Assembly (NCBI RefSeq): GCF_001586215.1
Contig: NZ_CP014634.1
Coordinates: 1,240,001 to 1,304,000 of the forward strand
Source: Corynebacterium simulans
Lineage (GTDB): Bacteria; Actinomycetota; Actinomycetes; Mycobacteriales; Mycobacteriaceae
Length of the DNA stretch: 64,000 nucleotides
Reading direction: 5' to 3'
The notes under the pieces are model-generated. The model saw nothing but the letters and a program-made list of their open reading frames with translations. It was not told the DNA's origin and did not search any database. Position numbers and translations under genes: made by a program. Shown piece after piece: positions 14 through 12,550 of this stretch (position 1 is the stretch's first letter; every line of letters begins with the position of its first letter).

Positions 14-2875
14 CTAGAACGTCTCGTCCAAGTCATCGAGGGACGGCGTCTGGCTGTGGCGGCCAAAGCTAAAGCCGGTGGAACCCTCGCCGGCGCTGTG
101 GCGGCCCGGCTGCACCTGCGAAGCATTGTTGAAAGAGTCCATGTGGTCGGTTTCGTCCAGCCCACTGAGCGCATCTGCGAAGGAAGGTAAAGCAGCTTCC
201 GTCTCCGGCTGCGCTTCCTTTGGCAGCAAGTATTTGAAATCGGTGATGCGGCCGAACTGCACCACGGTCAAAGAACGCGAAAGCTGGCTGGTTAGCGCGG
301 TATTGCTATCGACCTCGATGATGCGAGTGCGGGAAGGATCGATCTCGGTGTATCCATCGGAGGCGCCCAACGTGGTCAGCGATTCATTGCTGAAGGCCTG
401 CATAGCGCCCTTTTCTTCGCTCATACCCGCCATGAACTGCTGGGTGGATTGCTCCTGCCTGCGGTTATCGTCCAAGAAGGTCACCTTGGACAGGAACTGC
501 TGCATGCTGCCCGTCATTTGTGGATTGGTAATCGCACTGTGCCAGACCTGCGGCTTCAAATCTCGATCCGCCATCGCTGGGTGATCCAGGTTGCGAGCGA
601 TCATGTCCAGCGGCGACTTCGAATACTGGCCGCGCATGCCCCACATGGCGCTCGGCTGGATAGAGCCGTTGCCCACCTGGTGGCGCTCGAAGACAGAATT
701 CATGTAATCCACGAGCCCACGCAAAGACTTATGAGCCCAGGCCTCAGAGAAGACGTGGGAACGAATTCCCTCGGCCATGCGGCTGGTTTCGTCGTCGGAG
801 ACCTTTGCCTTGCCGATGCGCGCGTTATCCGGCAAGCCGGATTCCGGGGTGCGCAGGTGGTCACTGGTGGTGGACTTCAAGCCGAATGGCGCATAGATTG
901 CGCGACCCAGAACTGAAGACCAGCTCAGGAACTGACCATATGCATTGATGTTGCGGTCGATGTCTCCCGCTGCGAGCACGATGTTGCGCGCGGCAATCTC
1001 CTGGTTCTGGCGGTTGAGCTTTTGCCTTTGCACGTAATCGTAGATTTCGCGCTGCGCCTTGGTGAAGGCAAGCCAGGAACAAACCAGGAACAAGGCGATG
1101 GAAACAATGACGCCGAGGGTGGTCCACTTCCAGTCCAGGGTGGGCATGGAATCCCAAATCCGCAAGTCGCTGTTGTAGTGCGAGATGCACAGGTAAATGA
1201 GCACGAGCAAAATCGCGCCTAGCACGCCCCACATAGCACGCAGCTTGGTGGTCAGCTTGCGGTTTTCGGCGTTGAAGTCACGCTCGGCAAAGCCCTTGGC
1301 TTCCTCGCTGAGCTGGCGGGCGACGTCTTCGAAGTGCGCCTCGCGCTGGCGTGCGGAATGCAGGCTTGCGGCCAAACCAGAGCCGACCTTCCATGCGAAG
1401 GTTTCCTGGTGCTGGTTACGCCATGCCGCGAATTGCTGCTTTTTACGGTTGATCTCAGTGTTTTGTGTGCTCTGGCTAGTCCACTCCAGGTCAGCCGCGA
1501 ACTTCTCCGCAGCGAGTGGATCGAAAGGTGCAATCGTTGCCTGCGCCTCGTTTTCATAGCCCACCGTGCGGTTCATCAGCGGGTGGAAACCACGGAAGGA
1601 TTGGCTGACATCGGGCACGGACTGCTTGCCGTGCTGGACAATGAGCACGTCCTGATTATTGCCCTTCGGCGGGGCGAAGTTGGCGTTTTCCTTCCACTGA
1701 CCATCGACTAAGCCCAGCGCAAAGTCATGATAGGCCTCCCACATGCCAGCCAGCTGCGGGGTATCACCAACGTCGAATTGGACCTTCTGGGCTTCATTCA
1801 GCGTCCGGTTATTCTTCTGCTGCATCTGTGCGATGGATACAGCATTCTCGCCCTTGCCGGAATGGCCATCCAAAACCACCTCCATGTTGGAATTGCGGCC
1901 ATAGAGAAGATTCTGCAGGAACGAGGCGGTTGCGCTGTTTACGGCACCGCGCCGGTCGTTGACCCAATCCTGCGGCTTGCCGATGACGGTTGCCCAGTAC
2001 AGGCGCAGGTTATCGCGCAGCGCAGCCCACGCGCCGATCTTCTGCGTCTTCGGGGTCTCCAGCGGGATTTCCTGGGAAATCAGGCTGCCACCAAAAGCGT
2101 GAAAGAGGGTATCCGCGTAGTGCTGCGTAAGCGCGTTCGGATCGGTAGCGTGCTCGGTGTAGCTGGTGTTATTCACGCGGGTACGCGGCAGGCGATTATT
2201 CGGATTGAATACTCGGTCCTTGACCTCATTTTCGACCTCGCTGGCATCGATAGTGCGGTGGAAAGCACGCACGAGGCGGAAGTTTTCCCAATTTCCGGTT
2301 TCCATCAGCCGGCCCGACTCGGCCTCGAATACAGCTGCCTCCGGCATTCCGCGCCACAGGCCGAAGATGGATGCCACGGCAGGAGCTGCGAACTGTGCCA
2401 AGGCAAAGCCATCTTCGCTGCGCATGATGGGGCGAATATGCGAAGCGGAAGGAGTGCCGCCCTCTTCTGGGGAAAGCACCAGGTTCTCCCACACCTGCAG
2501 CGGCTCAATGTGTGCCGGCTGCAAAGGCAAGGTGGTCAGCAACAGGCGAACGCGCTGGTTCGAGGCCTGGACGATGCGCGAATCCACGGCCGCCGCCCAC
2601 CGCGACAAAGCGTCTGGCTGCAAGGAATCACTTTCATCCAGCGTATCGATGACCACGAGGAGCATATCGCCTTCGTAGTTGCGCAGAGACTCATCGAGAG
2701 TGGCAATACGTGGGTTTCCCTCGGCGTCGAAGAAGCGTACTGCGGCTGCCGACGTCGGTTGGGTGTAGTCCACCCACATGAAGTTCTGCAGCAAGCCAAC
2801 AGCTCGCAGGTCGAAAAGGCGGGAACGAATCTCATCGGCCGTGGCGCCGTGTCCAAAGAACAGTACGTTAGTCAT
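14..2875 (-). CDS. Large membrane protein of the tubulin-like/vWA cluster
   Basis: A 953-residue protein of no family I can name. The N-terminal half looks alpha/beta (opening VLFFGHG; a hydrophobic strand LLVVIDTLDE near residue 72). Residues 500-545 are charged and probably coiled. Two membrane segments lie near 547-565 and 586-605, followed by a long hydrophilic C-terminal half. The last residues, after a Ser/Gly/His-rich linker, are DDLDETF; the upstream tubulin-like protein ends TDLDDTF. Its ATG overlaps the stop of that gene by one base (TAATG), so the two are translationally coupled. I infer a membrane partner of the tubulin-like protein. Its biochemical role is unknown. Confidence 0.85.
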   Translation of the reverse strand: MTNVLFFGHGATADEIRSRLFDLRAVGLLQNFMWVDYTQPTSAAAVRFFDAEGNPRIATLDESLRNYEGDMLLVVIDTLDESDSLQPDALSRWAAAVDSRIVQASNQRVRLLLTTLPLQPAHIEPLQVWENLVLSPEEGGTPSASHIRPIMRSEDGFALAQFAAPAVASIFGLWRGMPEAAVFEAESGRLMETGNWENFRLVRAFHRTIDASEVENEVKDRVFNPNNRLPRTRVNNTSYTEHATDPNALTQHYADTLFHAFGGSLISQEIPLETPKTQKIGAWAALRDNLRLYWATVIGKPQDWVNDRRGAVNSATASFLQNLLYGRNSNMEVVLDGHSGKGENAVSIAQMQQKNNRTLNEAQKVQFDVGDTPQLAGMWEAYHDFALGLVDGQWKENANFAPPKGNNQDVLIVQHGKQSVPDVSQSFRGFHPLMNRTVGYENEAQATIAPFDPLAAEKFAADLEWTSQSTQNTEINRKKQQFAAWRNQHQETFAWKVGSGLAASLHSARQREAHFEDVARQLSEEAKGFAERDFNAENRKLTTKLRAMWGVLGAILLVLIYLCISHYNSDLRIWDSMPTLDWKWTTLGVIVSIALFLVCSWLAFTKAQREIYDYVQRQKLNRQNQEIAARNIVLAAGDIDRNINAYGQFLSWSSVLGRAIYAPFGLKSTTSDHLRTPESGLPDNARIGKAKVSDDETSRMAEGIRSHVFSEAWAHKSLRGLVDYMNSVFERHQVGNGSIQPSAMWGMRGQYSKSPLDMIARNLDHPAMADRDLKPQVWHSAITNPQMTGSMQQFLSKVTFLDDNRRQEQSTQQFMAGMSEEKGAMQAFSNESLTTLGASDGYTEIDPSRTRIIEVDSNTALTSQLSRSLTVVQFGRITDFKYLLPKEAQPETEAALPSFADALSGLDETDHMDSFNNASQVQPGRHSAGEGSTGFSFGRHSQTPSLDDLDETF

Positions 2876-5800
2876 TAGAAGGTGTCATCCAAGTCGGTGA
2901 GGTTGAATTCAGGCTCAAAGCGCGGGGTCTGGCTGGAAGAATCCCGGCTCGCGGGAGCCTCAAAAGTATCGGGCGTTTCAGCGACGGTCTTTGCCTGGCC
3001 CAGCAGATCGCGGATGCGCTGCGCCATGACGACGACGTCCGGCGCCAAGTCACGGTAGTACGGCGTAGCGGAGGCGACGTCGCGGCGGCGAATGTTTGCA
3101 AATGGCTTGTCATCCATGCCTTGGCCCGGCAGAGAATTCATTCCACCCGGAATGAAGTGATCTGCGCCGCGGACGAACTTATCGAGCTCCGCAACGAAGG
3201 ATTCATAACGATCCTGGATGCTGGAGCCGACGACGCCGCGGCCCGGCACGGTGCCATCACGCAGGAAGGCCGCCAGACGGTGAACCAGTGGGTGCGTCGA
3301 AGCACCAGAGTGCGCAAAGTCCTGGCCGTCGTCGTAAAGCCCGCGCAGCAACTGGTACGGGTACAAGGAAGAGGCAAAGCCGTATGCGCCGTTCTTTTGT
3401 ACCCTCGCGTACGCGATGAAGATGGACTCAAGCACGGAAGACATCCAGTCGGACTTCTTAACCATGCGGCGCGGGGAAATCAGCATCGGGTTCGGGAAAG
3501 GTACCCAATCGCCTACGCCATTGGCGGTGTCGTCGTAGATATGTGCCGCGGCGTTATCGGAATCCGGGTTGGATATGTGGATCCGGCCGGTAATGCGGCC
3601 GATGATCCAACCTGCCACCATGGCCTGACGCTCGGTCTCAGTCAGCGGCAGAGCCGCCGCGAGCGGACGGGTACGACGCTCCGACCAGTAGGAACCATCG
3701 AAGTTTTCTTGCTTATCGATGTCCTCGGCGATGTAGCCGAACATGGAAGAAAATACGATCGGCGAGTAGTTCGGGTAGGAACCGAAGATCTCGATGTGCT
3801 GTACCTGCTCGGACATGTTCAGCGAGTTACGCAACGCCACCTGCGATGGCTCGTCAATAGAAGGCGTAGAAAGCAGCTCGCTCAGGCGTGGAACGATGCC
3901 GGTTTCTTCGCTGCCCAAAGCCTCGAAAGGAATATCAGAGAAGGAGTAGGTGTACTGCACGTCCTTGCCGTGGATGCGCTGGACCATGTCGCTGGACACG
4001 GCAGCCAACGGGCGGGCGTAGCTCAGCGCCATCTGGAAGGCGCTGACGAAGCGGTCAATGCGCTGGGAGTGCTCCACCTCGTTGATATCCGGGGTCAGCG
4101 TCAGGTAGCTGCGCAGATCCACGGAGTTGAACTTGTAGAACTCATAGTCGCGGCGGTTAATCCACGCACGGGAGCGCTCCAGCAGATCTGCCGGGCGGAT
4201 GCGCGAACGGTACTGTGCGCGCTGGGACTCGCGACGCTCCCCGGTCTGCGGATGCTGCGATAGGTGCTTGGATACCCAACCTGCACGGTTGCTGTATTCA
4301 TCGTTGGTGCGCTTCTGCGGCGCCAGCGTATCCCGCGGTGCCTTGTTGGCATCTAGCGAATCCCACTCGCCGCGAATGACCGCACGCACCGCGAATGGGT
4401 AAGCCTGATCGTAATGTTGTACATCGGCAGTGGACTGCTGGCCCTGAATGGTGCGCAACATCTGGGTTTGGTAGTCGGTGATAAACGCGTTGACGTCGGT
4501 CAACATGATTTCGTTTTCCGCGCCCTTGAAGCGAGACTCAACGACCTCGTCTACTTCCTCCGGCCAGGCGTTGACCTCGTTGGTGCGAACGTCTGCCAGC
4601 TTGTTGGTCTCCGGGCGTGACTGTGCCGCCTTCTCGAGCACCTCATGGGCGTCGCCAAGCTCACGCTGCAGATGGAAGAGGTTCTCGTCGACGTAATCCT
4701 GCAGAACGTCCTGCAGAATATGCGCCGCAGCCAACAGGAAGTAGTGGTAGAACTGCTGGTGATAAAGGCCCAGTAGCGCGTTGACAGTCGGCGTTGGATC
4801 CGTCATCTGGCCCTTGCCGGTCAGCGGGCTAAGGATCGGCTCCGCGCCTTGCGGAAGCGCAAGCACGGCGAAGTTCTGGAAGGAATTAGAGAACTCGTTA
4901 AGCTGCGGCTGCAGGCGGTCGCCGCTGGCCAAGACGTCCTTGACGCGATCGAGCATCTCGCGAACATAAGGCAGGCCCACTGCCGCCAACTCGCCCTCGA
5001 CCGTGCTCAAGACCTTGTCTGAGAAGAAGTTAGCGAAGCGATAGGTGGTGTCATACGCTGCCTGTTGGAGCATTCCCGCGATGTACTGCTGGTTCTGTGG
5101 ATCGCTCAGGTTCTGCATGAGCTCTGCGCGCCACTCGTTAACGTTGCGCCCTTCCCCCACCGGGATGAAACTACGCAGGCTGCGCGCTGCGTTTTCGGCA
5201 GCTGGCTGGCCCATGCCGCCGAATACGGTGTTCAGCCAGTTATACGCGGAGTTCGGATCGATAGGTCCGCCCATCGCCCAGTTCGGATCCAACATCATGT
5301 CTTGGAAGCGGCCCGGCAGGCGCTCATCAAGGCGCTTTGCAATCTGCATCTCGCCGGCCTCTGGGTTGGCCTTGTCAAGGTGGCCGTTGAGCAAGCGATC
5401 GAAAGAACTACGGGCCAGGCGCTGTGCGGAATACTCAGCGAAGCGATCGCGGCCCATGGAAATCTGCGCATAACCCAGCGAACCCCACGGCAGGCGGGCC
5501 CACGGGGTACCGCCCTGGGACTGATCACGGTCCCAACCGAAGAAACGGCGGCCGCCGTCACCGGATGGGGTGTTGGTCAACGCATAAGAGACCAGGTTGT
5601 CAGACGCACGAGTCGAGGCCATCAAGCCGGCCAGCGCGCGGCCCAGGCCGCGGTAGATCGACATCGCGGAGCCATCGCCAAAGCGGGAGCCGGTGGTGCC
5701 CATCTTGGAACCGATGGGAAAGATTCGGCCGAAAGTCGGCCCCTCTGGCGGGGTGCCCATATCAAAGGCCTCGAAGATGGCGCGGTCATGCGCGGTGGAG

Positions 5801-6546
5801 TTACCCATCTGGGATGCAACGACCTCGCCGAACATGGCCAAGGAGTTGGGCCATGCGCCGGCCATGTCCTCTGCCTTATTGTCGGAGAAGATCTCCGGGG
5901 TGTACATGAAGACCAGCGTGCTGGTCGGATCGAGATTCTTGATGGTGGTCAGAACGCGGCAGACATCCAGGAACATCGAAGCGCCTGCGCCGCCTGCCAT
6001 GGAGGAAACAACCAGCACAACCGGCGCGGAGGAACCAGTATCTGTGCGCTTCTTCGACTGCTTGTAATTGAGCTCGTTGAGCTCCTGGATAGCTTCCTGG
6101 GTAAACATCTCAGACACCGCCGCGTTCAATGCGTTGCGGATGTCCTTCAGGTGGCGCAGGGTCAGGATGCGGCCGATGGCGCGGTACTGGCCGGCGCCGT
6201 CGGCAAGCTTTGTGTCATTCGATTGCGGCGTACGCGAAGCCCACGTGGCGATCTCACCAAGCTTGCCGGAGCGGCCCAACGTTTCAGAGATACCAGCATC
6301 GAACTGGTTGTAATGCTGGCGTGAGCCGATACCCACATACTGACCGCCGCTTTGGGTAACGTTCGGCAGCTTCTGCGGGCCGGCCTCCTCTTCGAGGGGA
6401 ACATCGATGTTCACAAACTGCCACGCCTTGGGCAGCTCGGTGATGTCTGGATCGATGGTGCGCAGCTCCGCCTTGAGCTGGTCCATGATAAAAGCCAAGG
6501 TCTTGGCGCCGGAGCCACCGCAGCCAACTACGAGGAACTTCTTCAT
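2875..6546 (-). CDS. Tubulin/FtsZ-like large protein (Tubulin_2-like)
   Basis: A 1223-residue protein. The N-terminus (KKFLVVGCGGSGAKT) is a glycine-rich nucleotide-binding start as in tubulin/FtsZ proteins. Residues 181-190 (SSMAGGAGAS) sit where the tubulin signature GGGTGTG is expected, in a degenerate form. The rest is far longer than FtsZ (about 400 residues) and is mostly soluble. It ends with an acidic/Ser linker and DLDDTF, like the FtsZ tail peptide. I assign it to the bacterial tubulin-like family that Pfam calls Tubulin_2, from memory of the motif pattern. GTP binding and polymerisation are not shown by sequence. It lies 72 nt after the vWA gene and overlaps the next gene by one base. 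Confidence 0.75.
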   Translation of the reverse strand: MKKFLVVGCGGSGAKTLAFIMDQLKAELRTIDPDITELPKAWQFVNIDVPLEEEAGPQKLPNVTQSGGQYVGIGSRQHYNQFDAGISETLGRSGKLGEIATWASRTPQSNDTKLADGAGQYRAIGRILTLRHLKDIRNALNAAVSEMFTQEAIQELNELNYKQSKKRTDTGSSAPVVLVVSSMAGGAGASMFLDVCRVLTTIKNLDPTSTLVFMYTPEIFSDNKAEDMAGAWPNSLAMFGEVVASQMGNSTAHDRAIFEAFDMGTPPEGPTFGRIFPIGSKMGTTGSRFGDGSAMSIYRGLGRALAGLMASTRASDNLVSYALTNTPSGDGGRRFFGWDRDQSQGGTPWARLPWGSLGYAQISMGRDRFAEYSAQRLARSSFDRLLNGHLDKANPEAGEMQIAKRLDERLPGRFQDMMLDPNWAMGGPIDPNSAYNWLNTVFGGMGQPAAENAARSLRSFIPVGEGRNVNEWRAELMQNLSDPQNQQYIAGMLQQAAYDTTYRFANFFSDKVLSTVEGELAAVGLPYVREMLDRVKDVLASGDRLQPQLNEFSNSFQNFAVLALPQGAEPILSPLTGKGQMTDPTPTVNALLGLYHQQFYHYFLLAAAHILQDVLQDYVDENLFHLQRELGDAHEVLEKAAQSRPETNKLADVRTNEVNAWPEEVDEVVESRFKGAENEIMLTDVNAFITDYQTQMLRTIQGQQSTADVQHYDQAYPFAVRAVIRGEWDSLDANKAPRDTLAPQKRTNDEYSNRAGWVSKHLSQHPQTGERRESQRAQYRSRIRPADLLERSRAWINRRDYEFYKFNSVDLRSYLTLTPDINEVEHSQRIDRFVSAFQMALSYARPLAAVSSDMVQRIHGKDVQYTYSFSDIPFEALGSEETGIVPRLSELLSTPSIDEPSQVALRNSLNMSEQVQHIEIFGSYPNYSPIVFSSMFGYIAEDIDKQENFDGSYWSERRTRPLAAALPLTETERQAMVAGWIIGRITGRIHISNPDSDNAAAHIYDDTANGVGDWVPFPNPMLISPRRMVKKSDWMSSVLESIFIAYARVQKNGAYGFASSLYPYQLLRGLYDDGQDFAHSGASTHPLVHRLAAFLRDGTVPGRGVVGSSIQDRYESFVAELDKFVRGADHFIPGGMNSLPGQGMDDKPFANIRRRDVASATPYYRDLAPDVVVMAQRIRDLLGQAKTVAETPDTFEAPASRDSSSQTPRFEPEFNLTDLDDTF

Positions 6547-6618
6547 CTGCTCTTAAAACCTTTCGGGATGTCTCTTTAAGTGTTCAACTTGTGCGTTCTG
6601 CTTGCGTTATGGTTCGGG

Positions 6619-9486
6619 CTAGTTGTTTCCGAAGGAAGGCCCCTGCGGCCATCCACCGTTGTTGCCGCGCGGCCCGTTGCCCGGCTGGCCGAAGCCGCCC
6701 TGGCCACCTGGTTGACCAAAACCACCTGGCTGGCCGCCCTGGTTACCCGGTTGGCCAAAGCCTCCCTGTTGGCCTGGCTGACCGAAGCCACCTTGGCCAC
6801 CTGGCTGACCGAAGCCACGCTGCTGACCTGGCTGGCCCGGCTGCTGCACCTGGCCCGGCTGCCCCGGGAACTGCTGCACTGGAGCGTTAGCACCCGGCGC
6901 GTTCTGCGGCGCCTGTGCGCCTTGTGCGCCTTGCTCTCCCTTCGGGCCCTTCGGAGCCTTAGGCTCCTTCGGCGCTGGGAACTGCACCTGCTCGAAGAGC
7001 ACCGGTGCGGAGCGGTTGATCTCCTCGGAAAGCTCGTCGTACTTTTCGGCATGTGCCATCGTGTCGACCGTCAAGACGATTTCGCCGCGATCCTTGTCAT
7101 TAGCGTTGCCCACGAAGAACCAGTTGTTCTGAACTGCCAGCGGCAAGATGGCGCGGCCGCCAGACTGCTTGCCCTTTCCGGAGATGGAGCCGTCCTTTTC
7201 AACTTCCACATGGGCCGCGGTAAATGGGCTAAGGCCCATCTTTGCCTTCGCCTCGTACAGGCCCAGGTTTGCCCGGCGCGGCGCGGCGTCGACAGGCACT
7301 GCGCCCTGGAACTCCTCCTTGGAAACCGCAAACGGCTTGCCGGTATCCGTGCGGATGAGGCTCGTGCCTTCCTTCTTGACCGGAATCGTCTTCGCGAACA
7401 TACGCGGGGACTCAGGGATGCGGCCGGAGAACCACTTCATGAAGTAAAGAACTGCCAGCGGAATCAAAAGACCCAAGAGGACCGCCAGCACGAAGGCAAG
7501 GCCGAAAGCGCTCTTGCTCAAAGGCGTGGTCATCGAGCCCTTGAGTTGCAAAGGCAGCTGCGCTTCCTGGTTATCTTCCGCAGACTGCAAGCTCAGCGTT
7601 GGCTTCAAAGCCAACGCGCCGTCTTCCATGTTCTCTGCAGAAAGGGTGATCGGCAGCGTCGCCTCTTCGCCCTCACCAAGCTCAAGCGCGTTATCCACGG
7701 AATCGTGCTTGGACGTAACCTTGAGCGCATCCACGCCCTTCGGCAGCGTGGCCTCATCAGCGCCGAAGCTTTGCTCCGTCAGCCACACCTTGCCCGGACC
7801 AGTTACCGGAACATCGACCGTGACTTCCTTTTCCGTCATCGACACCACCTGTGCCGAGCCGACGGAGGGCATGTTGACCGGGGTAATCGTCAGCGGAGTT
7901 TCACTCTTGATGGGGTTGAGCTTGGAGCCCGGCTGATTATCGACGCCCTTCGTGGTGATGTCCACGCTGGTCACCAGCTTGCCCGCGGCAACGTTTTCGA
8001 CCTTGTCCAACGGGATATCCACCGCGTTGCCATCCACAATCGGGGCGTTTTCGAGCAGCGTTACTGGCTCGCCCTCTTCGGGGACGAACTCCGCGCGCAG
8101 CGTGCCTTGGCCTTCGAGCTTGCGCGGCTCACCGCCGCCGTCGACAAGCTGTGCCTTAATAAATTGGTCGGAGTTGATGCCGCCGCTTAGCTTCTCACCG
8201 TTTTCGCGCTGCAGGTTGAGGTTCAGACCCGGAATCATCACCATGGATGCTTGGTACTCACCCTCGGCGCCGCCCTCCAGCTTGTAGCCAAAGGTCCACT
8301 TGCCGGCCCAGCCATCGCCGCCCTTCTTCATCGCGACGTCGACCATGCCCGGCAGTCGGTCATTGGTGGTGATCTCCACGTCAGCGCCGGCGACCTTCTT
8401 GGTATCCGGCTTCAGCTCTACCGTTTGCCCATCAGGGCCGGTGAGGGTCGGGATGATCTTGCCTTCTTCCACGCTGGTCTTCGGAACCGCGGACAAGCGG
8501 ACCGGATCGACCGAGTTATCCAGGAAGAAATCGAATTGCTCGGTAAACGTGCCTTCTTTGTTCAAGCCACCGGAGGTAGGGATGAGGTTACGGAAAGCCG
8601 CGAACAATGCGGCGGGATCCTCACCGCCGTTGAAGAAGGCACCGTTCGGTTCGCCTTGGCCACAGCCCGCGCCTTCAGCCAGGTCGGTGAGAAGCTCCGT
8701 CTGCTCCTTCGCATCGCGCGCCGGTACGAGACCGACGTTGAAGAGGCGGATATTGGACTGGCGGAATGCGGACACCGTGGAATCCGGGGTGCACAAAATG
8801 TTGCGGGCTGCTGCGTTGTCCTTACCGGTCTCAACGCCCACGTAGGCGCCGTCGGTGAAAAAGACAATGGCGCGGCAATCGCTGCCATCATGATCGCCGA
8901 ATTCTTTGAGCGCGCCCGAGTAGGCCAAACCGTAGTCGGTCTCTAGGTCAGAGGTGCGCTCCTTGTTACGGAAAGCGTCAATCTCCTTGTCCAAGGCGCC
9001 GGCGTTTCCGGAAACATTGGTCCAGCCGCCGTACTCGCCGGCCTCGGAGTAATAGCCTGAACCGAATCCGGCAAGCTTGACATTGATATCCGCGCCGGCG
9101 TCCTTGCCTAGGTTGGCCAGCTGATTGACGATGTCCTTGGTGGCATCAACACGGAAGTGAGAGTCATCGGTGGCGGGTTCGCCTTCGTAACCGATGAGGG
9201 ACTGCGACTGGTCGAGCACGAACAACAGGTCCGCGGATTTCTTATCCGCGATACACGAGCTAAAGTCCGCGAGGTTTTTCTGCGAGGTCTCAGAGAGGCT
9301 GCTCTCGGAGGCCTGCGGTGCTTTATCCTGTGGAGCCTGTTCTTGCGGTGCTTGTTCTGCCGGCGGGGCCGCCTCAGGTGCCGGGGCAGGCGCTGGCGCC
9401 TCTTGCGCGGAAGCTCCCAGAGAACCTGCGAAACCGCACAACAGTGCAGTGCTGCTGAGAGCGAGGAGACGATTTAGTTTTCGCAT
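6619..9486 (-). CDS. Secreted, membrane-anchored vWA protein with GQPG-repeat tail
   Basis: A 955-residue protein with a signal peptide (residues 1-27, ending ASA) and a Pro/Ala/Gln-rich linker. A von Willebrand A domain spans about 82-300, with MIDAS residues DQSQS at 92-96, a Thr in TDYG near 183 and TDG at 211-213. Beta-rich domains follow to about 650, then one membrane segment at about 661-683. The cytoplasmic part has a low-complexity tail (about 865-955) of repeated FGQPG/GGQGG units. The domain should therefore bind a divalent metal and a protein ligand outside the membrane while the tail faces the cytoplasm. It starts in a TAATG overlap with the preceding small membrane gene, so it belongs to the same operon. 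Confidence 0.85.
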   Translation of the reverse strand: MRKLNRLLALSSTALLCGFAGSLGASAQEAPAPAPAPEAAPPAEQAPQEQAPQDKAPQASESSLSETSQKNLADFSSCIADKKSADLLFVLDQSQSLIGYEGEPATDDSHFRVDATKDIVNQLANLGKDAGADINVKLAGFGSGYYSEAGEYGGWTNVSGNAGALDKEIDAFRNKERTSDLETDYGLAYSGALKEFGDHDGSDCRAIVFFTDGAYVGVETGKDNAAARNILCTPDSTVSAFRQSNIRLFNVGLVPARDAKEQTELLTDLAEGAGCGQGEPNGAFFNGGEDPAALFAAFRNLIPTSGGLNKEGTFTEQFDFFLDNSVDPVRLSAVPKTSVEEGKIIPTLTGPDGQTVELKPDTKKVAGADVEITTNDRLPGMVDVAMKKGGDGWAGKWTFGYKLEGGAEGEYQASMVMIPGLNLNLQRENGEKLSGGINSDQFIKAQLVDGGGEPRKLEGQGTLRAEFVPEEGEPVTLLENAPIVDGNAVDIPLDKVENVAAGKLVTSVDITTKGVDNQPGSKLNPIKSETPLTITPVNMPSVGSAQVVSMTEKEVTVDVPVTGPGKVWLTEQSFGADEATLPKGVDALKVTSKHDSVDNALELGEGEEATLPITLSAENMEDGALALKPTLSLQSAEDNQEAQLPLQLKGSMTTPLSKSAFGLAFVLAVLLGLLIPLAVLYFMKWFSGRIPESPRMFAKTIPVKKEGTSLIRTDTGKPFAVSKEEFQGAVPVDAAPRRANLGLYEAKAKMGLSPFTAAHVEVEKDGSISGKGKQSGGRAILPLAVQNNWFFVGNANDKDRGEIVLTVDTMAHAEKYDELSEEINRSAPVLFEQVQFPAPKEPKAPKGPKGEQGAQGAQAPQNAPGANAPVQQFPGQPGQVQQPGQPGQQRGFGQPGGQGGFGQPGQQGGFGQPGNQGGQPGGFGQPGGQGGFGQPGNGPRGNNGGWPQGPSFGNN

Positions 9487-10085
9487 TAGGCGCCCATCAC
9501 CTTTCCTACGTAGAAGGCGATCTCCACCGCGGAAGCGATCACAAGCAAGAAGCCGCCGATCATGACGAGGCGGTAGACCAGCGTCTGGCGCGTGTCCTCA
9601 ATGTAGAAGCTTTCCGCTTGGCGCCGAGTATTTTGCAGGGTGTATAGGCCAAGGAGCACAAAGGCGACGATGCCGGCAAGCACCCAACCTGCGATGGCCA
9701 AGCCAAAGAAAAGGCCCTGGGTTGCAGTGGAGGCCAATGGCGCGGCGATTACCGCGATTAAGGAGAAAATAGCGGCCACACCAGCGGCGATGAGCAAAGG
9801 CCACGGCCCCTTGGTGGGCATGGCTGGAGTGGCTGGGCGCGAGCTGCGCGGCGCGCTGGGCTGCCCGCCTGGTGCGCCAAAACCCTGGCCGCCACCTTGT
9901 GCGGGGCCACCTGCGCCAAACGACGGCGCGCTTCCTCCTGGTTGATTCGGCGAACCGAAGCTAGGGGAACTTGGGAATCCGAACCTCGGGCCGGCTGCAT
10001 TGTTAGGGCCGTTGTTGGGGCCGCTACCCGCTCCGGGGCGCGGACCGCCAAACTGGGGCGATGAGCCAGGCGAACCAAATGTCAT
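9486..10085 (-). CDS. Small Pro/Gly/Asn-rich four-helix-type membrane protein
   Basis: 199 residues, first gene of the tubulin-like/vWA operon. The N-terminal ~90 residues are low complexity (repeats such as FGSPG, GGPRPG, FGAPGGQ), like the tail of the vWA protein. They are followed by three to four hydrophobic segments. I chose ATG at 10085 because AAAAGG stands 9-10 nt upstream. An in-frame extension to 10178 would add 31 residues but lacks this support. The stop overlaps the vWA start by one base. The shared repeat composition suggests that the two proteins contact each other or a common partner (inference). Confidence 0.75.
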   Translation of the reverse strand: MTFGSPGSSPQFGGPRPGAGSGPNNGPNNAAGPRFGFPSSPSFGSPNQPGGSAPSFGAGGPAQGGGQGFGAPGGQPSAPRSSRPATPAMPTKGPWPLLIAAGVAAIFSLIAVIAAPLASTATQGLFFGLAIAGWVLAGIVAFVLLGLYTLQNTRRQAESFYIEDTRQTLVYRLVMIGGFLLVIASAVEIAFYVGKVMGA

Positions 10086-10404: not shown

Positions 10405-11103
10405 ATGACAGAAAAATCGGCAACCGCAACCACTTCCAGTGGCGAGAGCATCCGATTCATCCCGGTACAGTCCACGCTGTACCCGTGGCTGGTTACGGTG
10501 TTCGTCGTTACGTTCCTCATTTCCAACATCAATGCCACAAAGGGCGTCCAGCTCGGTCCGCTCATCACCGACGGCGCGTTCTTCTTATTCCCGCTGGCTT
10601 ATATCGCAGGCGACGTCCTGTCCGAATGCTATGGCTTCAAGTCCACGCGGCGGGCGGTCTACATCGGATTCGTCATGGCGATTCTGGCCGCGGTGTGCTT
10701 CTATATCGCGATTTGGCTGCCAGCGGCGGATTTCTATGAAGGCCAAGAGGCCTTCGCCGCTACCTTGGGCCTTGTGCCGCAGATCCTCGCCGCTTCCTTG
10801 GCAGGCTACTTGGTGGGCCAGCTGCTCAATTCCTTCACGCTGACCCGCATGAAGGCAAAGTCCGGTGAACGCGGGCTCATCGGCCGTTTGGTGGCCTCAA
10901 CCGTCGTGGGCGAGCTCGGCGATACTGTGTTGTTCTGCATCATCGCCGCACCAGTCATCGGCATTTCCACATTCAGCGGCTTTCTCAATTACGTAGTGGT
11001 CGGCTTCGTGTGGAAAACCCTCATCGAGGTGGTCATGCTGCCGCTAACCACCGTCGTCATCAAGTGGATTAAATCCCGCGAAGACTACGTTCCCAGCAGC
11101 TAA
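10405..11103 (+). CDS. yhhQ: Queuosine precursor transporter (YhhQ/VUT family)
   Basis: A 232-residue integral membrane protein with about six hydrophobic helices. It has the family landmarks ISNINATKG near residues 38-46, DGAFFLFPLAYIAGDVLSECYGF near 57-79 and the C-terminal WKTLIEVVMLPLTT. Known YhhQ proteins import queuosine precursors. The gene faces tgt across a 150-nt gap, which supports a salvage role. No strong ribosome-binding site is seen; GATAACT lies just before the ATG, so the mRNA may be nearly leaderless. Confidence 0.85.
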   Translation: MTEKSATATTSSGESIRFIPVQSTLYPWLVTVFVVTFLISNINATKGVQLGPLITDGAFFLFPLAYIAGDVLSECYGFKSTRRAVYIGFVMAILAAVCFYIAIWLPAADFYEGQEAFAATLGLVPQILAASLAGYLVGQLLNSFTLTRMKAKSGERGLIGRLVASTVVGELGDTVLFCIIAAPVIGISTFSGFLNYVVVGFVWKTLIEVVMLPLTTVVIKWIKSREDYVPSS

Positions 11104-11105
11104 CC

Positions 11106-11228
11106 CGCAAATACCCAGACCTAGAAACCCAGGGCTGGAACTGCAGCTTCCTGGTGAAAAGGGCGGCGTCGGCAAGCGCGAGAAAAGCCGAACAGGAGGT
11201 CTGCAGTTCCAGCCCTGGGTATTTGCGG
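11106..11228. repeat. Long inverted repeat between yhhQ and tgt
   Basis: The right arm (11201-11228) is the reverse complement of the left arm (11106-11146), except that the left arm carries a 14-nt insertion (11120-11133) bounded by CCCAG repeats. The loop is about 54 nt. It sits between convergent genes and can act as a bidirectional terminator, although no clear T-run follows. Confidence 0.75.
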
Positions 11229-11257
11229 AAAAGAGGCGGCGAGCGCAGGGAGGTAGC

Positions 11258-12550
11258 TTACTTGCCGGCGTAGTAGCGGCCCATGAACTCGTCGCGGTAG
11301 GCCTCGTAGTAGCCGCCGTCGATGGAGGCGCGGATGTTGTCCACCAAGCGGATCATGAAGGTAAGGTTGTGCATGGTGCACAGCGTGCCGGCCAGGAATT
11401 CGTTGGCCTTGAGCAGGTGGTGGATGTACGCGCGGGAATAGTTCTCCGAGACGTAGCCGCCGAACTCCTCGTCGATGCCCGTGAAGTCGCGCTTGAAGCG
11501 CGCACCCTTGAGGTTCAAGCGGCCATCGAGCGTGTACACGCCGCCGCGGCGGCCCAGGCGGGTCGGCGCAACGCAGTCGAAGGTGTCGGCACCAGCCTCG
11601 ATCGCGGTAAACAAATCATCGGGCTCGGAAATGCCCAGCAGGTGACGCGGTTTATCCTCAGGAAGCTCGTCGCAGACCCAGCCCACGATGGTGCCCAGGT
11701 TCTCCTTCTCCAGCGCGCCGCCGATACCAAAGCCGCCGAAACCGCGCTTGCCGTCCGCCTCGGCAGCCTGGGAAAGCTCCACCAGACCGCGGGTGGCTTG
11801 GCGGCGCAGGTCCTCGTACTGCGCGCCCTGGACGACGCCCCATAGGGACTGGCGCGGCTTCTGCGGGCCACGCTCCTCGGTCAGGCGGTGGTGCTCGTCG
11901 AGGCAGCGCTGCGCCCAGCGGTGCGTTCGCGCGACGGATTCCTCCTGATAGGCACGGCTATCGATGAGGGTGGTCAGCTCATCAAAGGCGAACATGATGT
12001 CAGCACCCAAACCATGCTGAATCTGCATGGAGACCTCCGGGGTAAAGCGGTGCTTCGAGCCATCGATAACAGACTTAAAGTCCACGCCATCCTCGTCGAC
12101 CTGCGCCATACGCTCCTTCTTGGCCGCGCGGATGTCCTTTTCGGTCAGGTTGGCCGTGTCCATGGCCAGGACCTTCTTGAATCCCACGCCAAGCGACATC
12201 ACCTGGAATCCGCCGGAGTCCGTGTAGGTGGGGCCATGCCAGTTTTCAAAGGTCGCGACGCCGCCAGCCTCATCCACGATGTCGTGGCCCGGCTGCAGAT
12301 AAAGGTGATAAGCGTTGGACAAGATAGCCTGCGCGCCCGTCTGGCGGATCTGCTCCGGGGTCAGGGTCTTAACCGTGGCCTTGGTGGCCACGGGGATAAA
12401 GGCTGGGGTCTGAATATCCCCGTGCGGTGTATGAATGGTGCCGCTGCGACCATGCTTGCCAGGACCAGCCTGGTCGAGGCGCGTGCGCACGTCGAAGCTC
12501 AGGTCAGTCTCTAGCTTGGGTGCAGGAAAAGGCGGCTGTTGCTCGATCAT
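11258..12550 (-). CDS. tgt: tRNA-guanine transglycosylase, zinc-cysteine-less
   Basis: A 430-residue Tgt, the enzyme that swaps guanine-34 for a queuosine precursor or queuine in GUN tRNAs. Conserved blocks are TDSGGFQVMSLG, the nucleophile region FDCVAPTR, and NYSRAYIHHLLKANEFLAGTLCTMHNL. Unusually, the zinc motif CxCxxC before NYSRAY is replaced by GxVSE-type residues (about 355-365), so the three cysteines are missing although the His region remains. The specificity loop is GIGGALEKEN, not the usual GGLAVGE. It starts 5 nt after the MMPL gene stop and is probably co-transcribed with it. Confidence 0.9.
   Translation of the reverse strand: MIEQQPPFPAPKLETDLSFDVRTRLDQAGPGKHGRSGTIHTPHGDIQTPAFIPVATKATVKTLTPEQIRQTGAQAILSNAYHLYLQPGHDIVDEAGGVATFENWHGPTYTDSGGFQVMSLGVGFKKVLAMDTANLTEKDIRAAKKERMAQVDEDGVDFKSVIDGSKHRFTPEVSMQIQHGLGADIMFAFDELTTLIDSRAYQEESVARTHRWAQRCLDEHHRLTEERGPQKPRQSLWGVVQGAQYEDLRRQATRGLVELSQAAEADGKRGFGGFGIGGALEKENLGTIVGWVCDELPEDKPRHLLGISEPDDLFTAIEAGADTFDCVAPTRLGRRGGVYTLDGRLNLKGARFKRDFTGIDEEFGGYVSENYSRAYIHHLLKANEFLAGTLCTMHNLTFMIRLVDNIRASIDGGYYEAYRDEFMGRYYAGK

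Follow-up and report, generated by a model that had tools for sequence, protein, structure and literature searches.

A predicted nine-gene tubulin-type GAP1-N2/DO-GTPase operon in Corynebacterium and the matched C-terminal tails of two of its proteins

Organisation of the gene cluster

The stretch of DNA analysed here, 64,000 nucleotides of the Corynebacterium simulans contig NZ_CP014634.1 (positions 1,240,001 to 1,304,000 of a single-contig genome of 2.74 Mb; hereafter the window), carries at its left end four minus-strand genes, I, H, G and F (Table 1). They belong to an operon whose predicted products identify it as a Corynebacterium member of two kinds of system predicted from genomes: the FtsZl1-vWA operons (2010; PMC2875224) and the tubulin-type GAP1-N2/DO-GTPase system (2020; PMC7159879). 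The source genome is closely related to C. striatum: the C. striatum relatives of the tubulin-like protein G listed by protein search were 90-92% identical, and a named C. striatum contig reached 95% in its best segment.

The four genes had been described in an initial annotation made from the sequence alone, and the list of open reading frames (ORFs) places them where that annotation did. Its description of three genes joined by one-base overlaps holds for the junctions at 9486 (I/H) and 2875 (G/F). H and G are separated by 72 bases, so that such overlaps never chain three consecutive genes within the window. The annotation had also suspected that the set runs past the left edge, and five more minus-strand genes, E, D, C, B and A, were indeed found closely behind F in the adjoining stretch (L002). 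What had been taken for a four-gene set is therefore an operon of nine genes in the order I-H-G-F-E-D-C-B-A, in which a GAP1-N2 protein, a DO-GTPase, a second vWA-like protein, a 749-residue protein and a small transmembrane (TM) protein accompany the original four.

Domain assignments for the added genes were made with Pfam. D carries GAP1-N2 and GAP1-M (PF20013, E=2.8e-19, 70 bits; PF20014, 27.6 bits; cut-off 24 for each), and B matches DO-GTPase2 (PF19993, E=3.3e-8, 33.9 bits; cut-off 27) and contains the P-loop GARNSGKS in its translation. C holds the second vWA-type metal site of the operon (D-x-[ST]-x-S); a vWA-TerF-like match at E<=0.01 was obtained for 4 of 22 aligned members of its family, and the C protein of the window genome matches nothing. 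A profile comparison of the vWA domains of C and H aligned just 20 columns around the MIDAS, which is not significant.

Table 1. Features of the operon and its surroundings. Positions refer to the window unless stretch L002 is given; aa, amino acids.
Feature	Position	Strand	Description
Gene I	9486..10085	-	199 aa; opens the operon; from ORF list; alternative start TTG at 10178
Gene H	6619..9486	-	955 aa; vWA protein; from ORF list
MIDAS DxSxS of H	9199..9213	-	residues 92-96
TM segment of H	7447..7503	-	residues 662-680; hydropathy scan
Gene G	2875..6546	-	1223 aa; Tubulin_2 / FtsZl1 protein
T1-type nucleotide loop GCGGSG of G	6508..6525	-	residues 8-13; no variation among 62 aligned sequences
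T4-type loop SSMAGGAGAS of G	5977..6006	-	residues 181-190; pattern in 57/60 loci ORFs
C-terminal tail of G	2878..2901	-	last 8 residues LTDLDDTF
Gene F	14..2875	-	953 aa; membrane protein; no Pfam family above cut-off
TM hairpin of F	1064..1237	-	residues about 547-604; segments 547-565 and 586-604 (hydropathy scan)
C-terminal tail of F	17..40	-	last 8 residues LDDLDETF
Gene E	stretch L002	-	749 aa
Gene D	stretch L002	-	519 aa; GAP1-N2 and GAP1-M (Pfam)
Gene C	stretch L002	-	319 aa; vWA-type site
Gene B	stretch L002	-	337 aa; DO-GTPase2 (Pfam)
Gene A	stretch L002	-	173 aa; small TM protein (hydropathy scan)
Boundary gene	10405..11103	+	232 aa; right edge of the block; outside the system
487-aa gene	L002:7235-8698	+	convergent to the operon, between it and gluQ; helical, TPR-like by eye

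Co-occurrence and gene order

Tubulin_2, GAP1-N2 and the F family were each found in 64 of 201 Corynebacterium genomes, and the listed genomes, compared by eye, were identical. In the wider family (201 genomes), 24 carried Tubulin_2 and 24 GAP1-N2, with 21 common to both; three Tubulin_2 genomes gave only weak partial matches, and three GAP1-N2 genomes lacked Tubulin_2. Class-wide, Tubulin_2 was present in 10 of 197 genomes. Control genomes show both Tubulin_2 and GAP1-N2 in the laboratory species C. glutamicum, a safe and tractable organism in which the system is open to experiment.

Loci were taken from 43 of the 63 other positive Corynebacterium genomes, hand-picked mostly against contig ends and near-copies, and supplemented with 14 from the family draw (13 from other genera, one from Corynebacterium) and two named contigs. 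Gene order was counted in the first 57 loci, the window included; many of these end at 20 kb, before the far end of the operon. As far as genes were present, the order I-H-G-F-E-D-C-B-A was held in 57/57 loci, so that the arrangement is more than chance and the genes travel together; the survey that the initial annotation had named as a possible refutation thus does not refute it. Six genes (D, E, F, G, H and I) were found in every one of these loci; C was found in 55 of them, B in 47 and A in 9, one further candidate for A having fitted I better. The loci are not fully independent, since L078 and L110 are apparently the same C. striatum locus. Outside the family, eight loci were compared with the F profile, and the single match was a weak one in L127 (E=1.5e-4).

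The tubulin-like protein G and the membrane protein F

The tubulin-like nature claimed for G is borne out by Pfam (Tubulin_2, PF13809, E = 8e-45, 154 bits; curated cut-off 27) and by structure prediction, the test on which the initial annotation had staked the claim. The model is a tubulin fold split by a long, mostly helical insert and followed by a linker and a C-terminal tail peptide. Its match to tubulins begins at residue 1 and extends to about 930-1080, and the fold therefore looks complete but interrupted. The T1-type loop lies within the first 60 residues in 56 of the 60 loci ORFs; the remaining four have different starts.

F begins with an alpha/beta domain, which is followed by long helices that include a TM hairpin, a C-terminal domain, a low-confidence linker and a tail peptide. 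The hairpin agrees with its earlier description as a membrane protein; among 60 homologues, two TM-like segments were found in 39, one in 14 and three in 7. Sequence similarity between F and G was not detectable. F possibly has a cryptic tubulin fold, for which the evidence conflicts; some N-termini read as GxG-type loops (FFGHGAT), a count blurred by uncertain start sites. Sequence searches gave no convincing solved relative for G, F or C. In two genomes, G231 (locus L077) and G294, the F gene has an in-frame TAA near its end; both genes were used unaltered.

The vWA protein H and the FG-rich membrane proteins

As the initial annotation had it, H is a vWA protein with a complete metal ion-dependent adhesion site (MIDAS), made up of D92-x-S94-x-S96, T183 and D212; the elements D-x-[ST]-x-S, T and D-G are kept in 26/26 aligned homologues. 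The match to VWA_2 (E=0.0013, 19.8 bits) lies under the Pfam cut-off of 27. Hydropathy scanning gave a hydrophobic stretch at the N-terminus, of the kind of a signal, and one TM segment further on. The vWA domain and a beta-rich region, the latter assessed from sequence, are predicted to lie outside the cell, with an inner domain ending in an FG-rich tail. Gene I has an FG-rich N-terminal part and, by the same scan, three TM-like segments, in keeping with the repeat-rich membrane protein first described. The predicted topology fits the proposed plan, in which membrane proteins would link a GTP-binding tubulin in the cytoplasm to a vWA domain on the outside.

The dipeptide FG occurs 2.65, 2.60 and 3.46 times per 100 residues in I, H and A (57, 57 and 9 loci), against 1.11, 0.85 and 0.85 expected from composition. 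The FG-rich low-complexity parts lie at 6619-7090 and 9800-10085 of the window and at L002:9080-9216, with FG two to four times over composition.

Matched C-terminal tails of F and G

The final six to eight residues of F and G agree in many genomes and vary jointly between genomes, as in the F/G pairs ELPGTGEF/SLPGEGEF, DMPGEDLF/SMPGEDLF, LDDLDETF/LTDLDDTF and PDFGEGLV/PSFGDGLV. Over 57 loci, the mean score of the last eight residues was 13.1 within and -0.8 between genomes, and none of 5000 permutations rose above 4.5. When the loci were thinned to 21 clusters (70% identity in the N-terminal part of the tubulin), these scores became 11.4 and -2.8, and the observed score was reached by 0/10,000 permutations. 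Shuffling of residues inside the tails gave -6.6 compared with 12.3 for the real tails (60 loci). No such match was found in windows 10-30 residues inward or at the C-termini of six other operon proteins. At positions with the same residue, 92 of 189 codons agree (93.8 expected); with agreement at the chance level, the match is kept as peptide and not through recent gene conversion.

F and G may therefore use their tails to dock on a single site that evolves along with them. A search of the operon proteins for internal copies of the tails gave no signal, the motif of the same genome scoring better than those of other genomes in between 2/4 (A) and 12/21 (F, I) cases. Tail similarity correlates with the identity of each operon protein (39 thinned loci; r 0.57-0.79). 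After control for the body of G the largest remaining correlation was 0.03; after control for the body of F, 0.47 remained for the body of G and 0.29 for E.

Comparison with known systems

The initial annotation knew of no assigned function for such genes; two proposals have in fact been published. In the available text of PMC2875224, the FtsZl1 family with vWA neighbours was linked to membrane remodelling, and a reviewer cites a signal peptide on the C. glutamicum vWA protein cgR_2627. In that of PMC7159879, tubulin-type GAP1-N2/DO-GTPase operons of actinobacteria and firmicutes are placed among biological conflict systems, with a switching role. Tubulin_2 proteins are described as divergent and FtsZ-like in the accessible part of PMC9871819. 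No experimental study of these genes was found among the literature matches listed, which were mostly judged by titles and the openings of abstracts; the portions of PMC6705760 and PMC4361050 at hand hold nothing relevant.

The elements shared with the system of PMC7159879, as far as that text extends, are a GAP1-N2 protein that also carries GAP1-M, DO-GTPase2, a tubulin that has a helical region, and a vWA protein bound to the membrane, all in a single operon; the text mentions neither the F family nor the matched tails. With the operons of PMC2875224 the present operon shares a Tubulin_2 protein adjoining a vWA protein with intact MIDAS. The alignment in the available text of that paper ended at helix H5, and no similarity was found there between the C-terminal domain of FtsZl1 and other tubulins, whereas the present model matches further. 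The F family, the matched tails, the complete but interrupted tubulin fold and the uninterrupted chromosomal site described below were not found in the accessible text of these papers.

Two further likenesses concern the tails. Phage TubZ/PhuZ combine a tubulin fold with an acidic C-terminal tail (PMC3678025, from the part available), a functional comparison only; there, one tailed protein places its tail on the adjacent subunit, whereas here two proteins are tailed and one is membrane-bound. In C. glutamicum, FtsZ has a linker ending in a short peptide that is read by the membrane-associated partner SepF, according to the available portion of PMC7118173. In the genome studied here, FtsZ has a gene of its own; the tails of F and G differ from species to species, many without likeness to the FtsZ tail.

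Proposed mechanism and alternative explanations

We lean slightly towards reading the nine-gene operon as a tubulin-type GAP1-N2/DO-GTPase system that acts as a membrane-associated switch driven by nucleoside triphosphates, with tail docking. In such a switch, H would sense a ligand or an envelope change outside the cell, and its signal would reach the DO-GTPase/GAP1 switch of B and D, which would license the GTP-dependent assembly of G at the membrane, with F as the putative anchor. The tails of F and G would compete for or share one docking site, most simply on an island-encoded partner. The site might instead lie on G itself, in the manner of the TubZ/PhuZ tail on the next subunit; F would then present a copy of the tail and so tie or cap assemblies of G at the membrane. 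As its output, the switch would locally alter the state of the membrane or of division, in defence or stress more probably than in routine growth. The FG-rich parts of I, H and A, if they are cytosolic, could gather the membrane proteins. The matched tails offer a direct handle on the docking partner.

Several results weigh against this reading. The T7 catalytic loop of FtsZ/tubulin was not recognised in G by eye. When the tails were reduced to seven clusters, the observed value was reached by 24/10,000 permutations. The tail score was at least 16 in 25 of 57 loci and positive in 39, yet zero in three and negative in 15, and 9 of the 13 loci outside Corynebacterium scored zero or negative, mostly only the final Phe being common there; some low scores may stem from wrong ORF ends or truncated genes. 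The distance comparison singled out no docking partner, which is left unnamed here because the tail correlations may be phylogeny alone. The actinobacterial systems in the accessible text of PMC7159879 have one tubulin and two FNIII proteins, one with HRDC, whereas Pfam found fn3 in 0/23 and HRDC in 0/23 members of the E family (such repeats evolve fast), and sequence search gave no solved relative of E. Finally, the four window proteins submitted, of the nine, gave no convincing match in PADLOC-DB 2.0.0; the sole match was PDC-S02 on F (E=0.022).

A more far-reaching version, which we regard as doubtful, is that the operon encodes two tubulins: F, cryptic and interrupted in its middle by a membrane hairpin, and G, its soluble GTP-binding partner, the two sharing a private, species-specific tail code. 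F would then seat an assembly of two subunits at the membrane, or cap it, under the GAP1-N2/DO-GTPase switch and the outside vWA sensor. If this is true, it would explain how accessory tubulins reach the membrane. We know of no precedent for a membrane-embedded tubulin such as F.

The 2020 proposal can also be taken literally, as phage defence or self-limitation, with the switch setting off damage to the membrane or an arrest of growth. The GAP1-N2/DO-GTPase core, the patchy and relocated block and the case made for conflict systems in the available text of PMC7159879 make this a real possibility, which the failure of Pfam searches to find in any of the nine proteins an effector domain (nuclease, pore, NADase) and the PADLOC result keep short of probable. 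More questionable is an accessory machine for membrane remodelling or the cell envelope that has no conflict role, its filaments shaping the membrane or positioning wall synthesis while the outer vWA domain grips an envelope component. It would account for the tubulin fold of G and for the FG-rich parts that the membrane proteins are predicted to have in the cytosol, and remodelling was predicted from FtsZl1-vWA operons in the accessible text of PMC2875224. The presence in less than a third of the genomes of one genus, the varied flanking genes and the uninterrupted site in 7 of 11 operon-free genomes speak for an optional module rather than for a core machine of the envelope.

It is improbable that the tails mimic the C-terminal peptide of FtsZ, bind SepF and so tie the operon to the Z-ring. 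The FtsZ of this genome ends in DDDLDVPSFMR and shares DDLD with the F tail LDDLDETF (G tail, LTDLDDTF), and SepF of C. glutamicum binds the FtsZ tail (PMC7118173, available part); however, many Corynebacterium tails (PGEGEF, MPGEDLF, DFGGGLI, MPGLD) are unlike the FtsZ tail of this genome, and F and G still match in several loci with such tails. The adhesion device of the initial annotation, whose outer MIDAS vWA domain would attach to surfaces while the tubulin held it in place from within, seems equally remote; adhesion is just one of the uses to which a MIDAS vWA domain can be put. The N-terminal hydrophobic signal, MIDAS and TM segment of H suit it, but the GAP1-N2 gene of the same 64 genomes has no role in it. 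The Pfam search moreover found no adhesin domain in H, and the NCBIfam match to a collagen-like adhesin is far under the cut-off and falls on the low-complexity tail.

Possible insertion site and neighbouring genes

The boundary gene encodes a VUT-family protein; tgt lies on its side of the block, in the window, and gluQ (GluQ) on the far side, the gluQ-side gene (L002:6292-7290) being of the glutamyl-synthetase type (tRNA-synt_1c, Pfam). The block stands within an apparent queuosine-linked gene group, with the VUT-family transporter gene and tgt at 10405-12550 of the window and the glutamyl-synthetase-type gene opposite. In the window genome, about 18 kb (operon and 487-aa gene) separate VUT and gluQ. 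In seven of 11 operon-free Corynebacterium genomes (L131-L137), gluQ comes after mmpL-tgt-VUT at a distance of about 20 to 110 bases; of the remainder, L138, L139 and L141 have tgt without adjoining gluQ, and L140 has gluQ beside tgt without VUT. A composition scan found no step in guanine-plus-cytosine content in the window's part of the block, so that an insertion, if the pattern is not due to loss elsewhere, was not recent or came from near kin.

Relatives of the 487-aa protein were found in L078, L110 and L111 only, most other loci ending short of that position. The flanks of the operon vary between clades, and in three loci of the wider family (L101, L103, L108) a TerD-like protein, recognised by eye with one sequence read, is encoded upstream of the operon.

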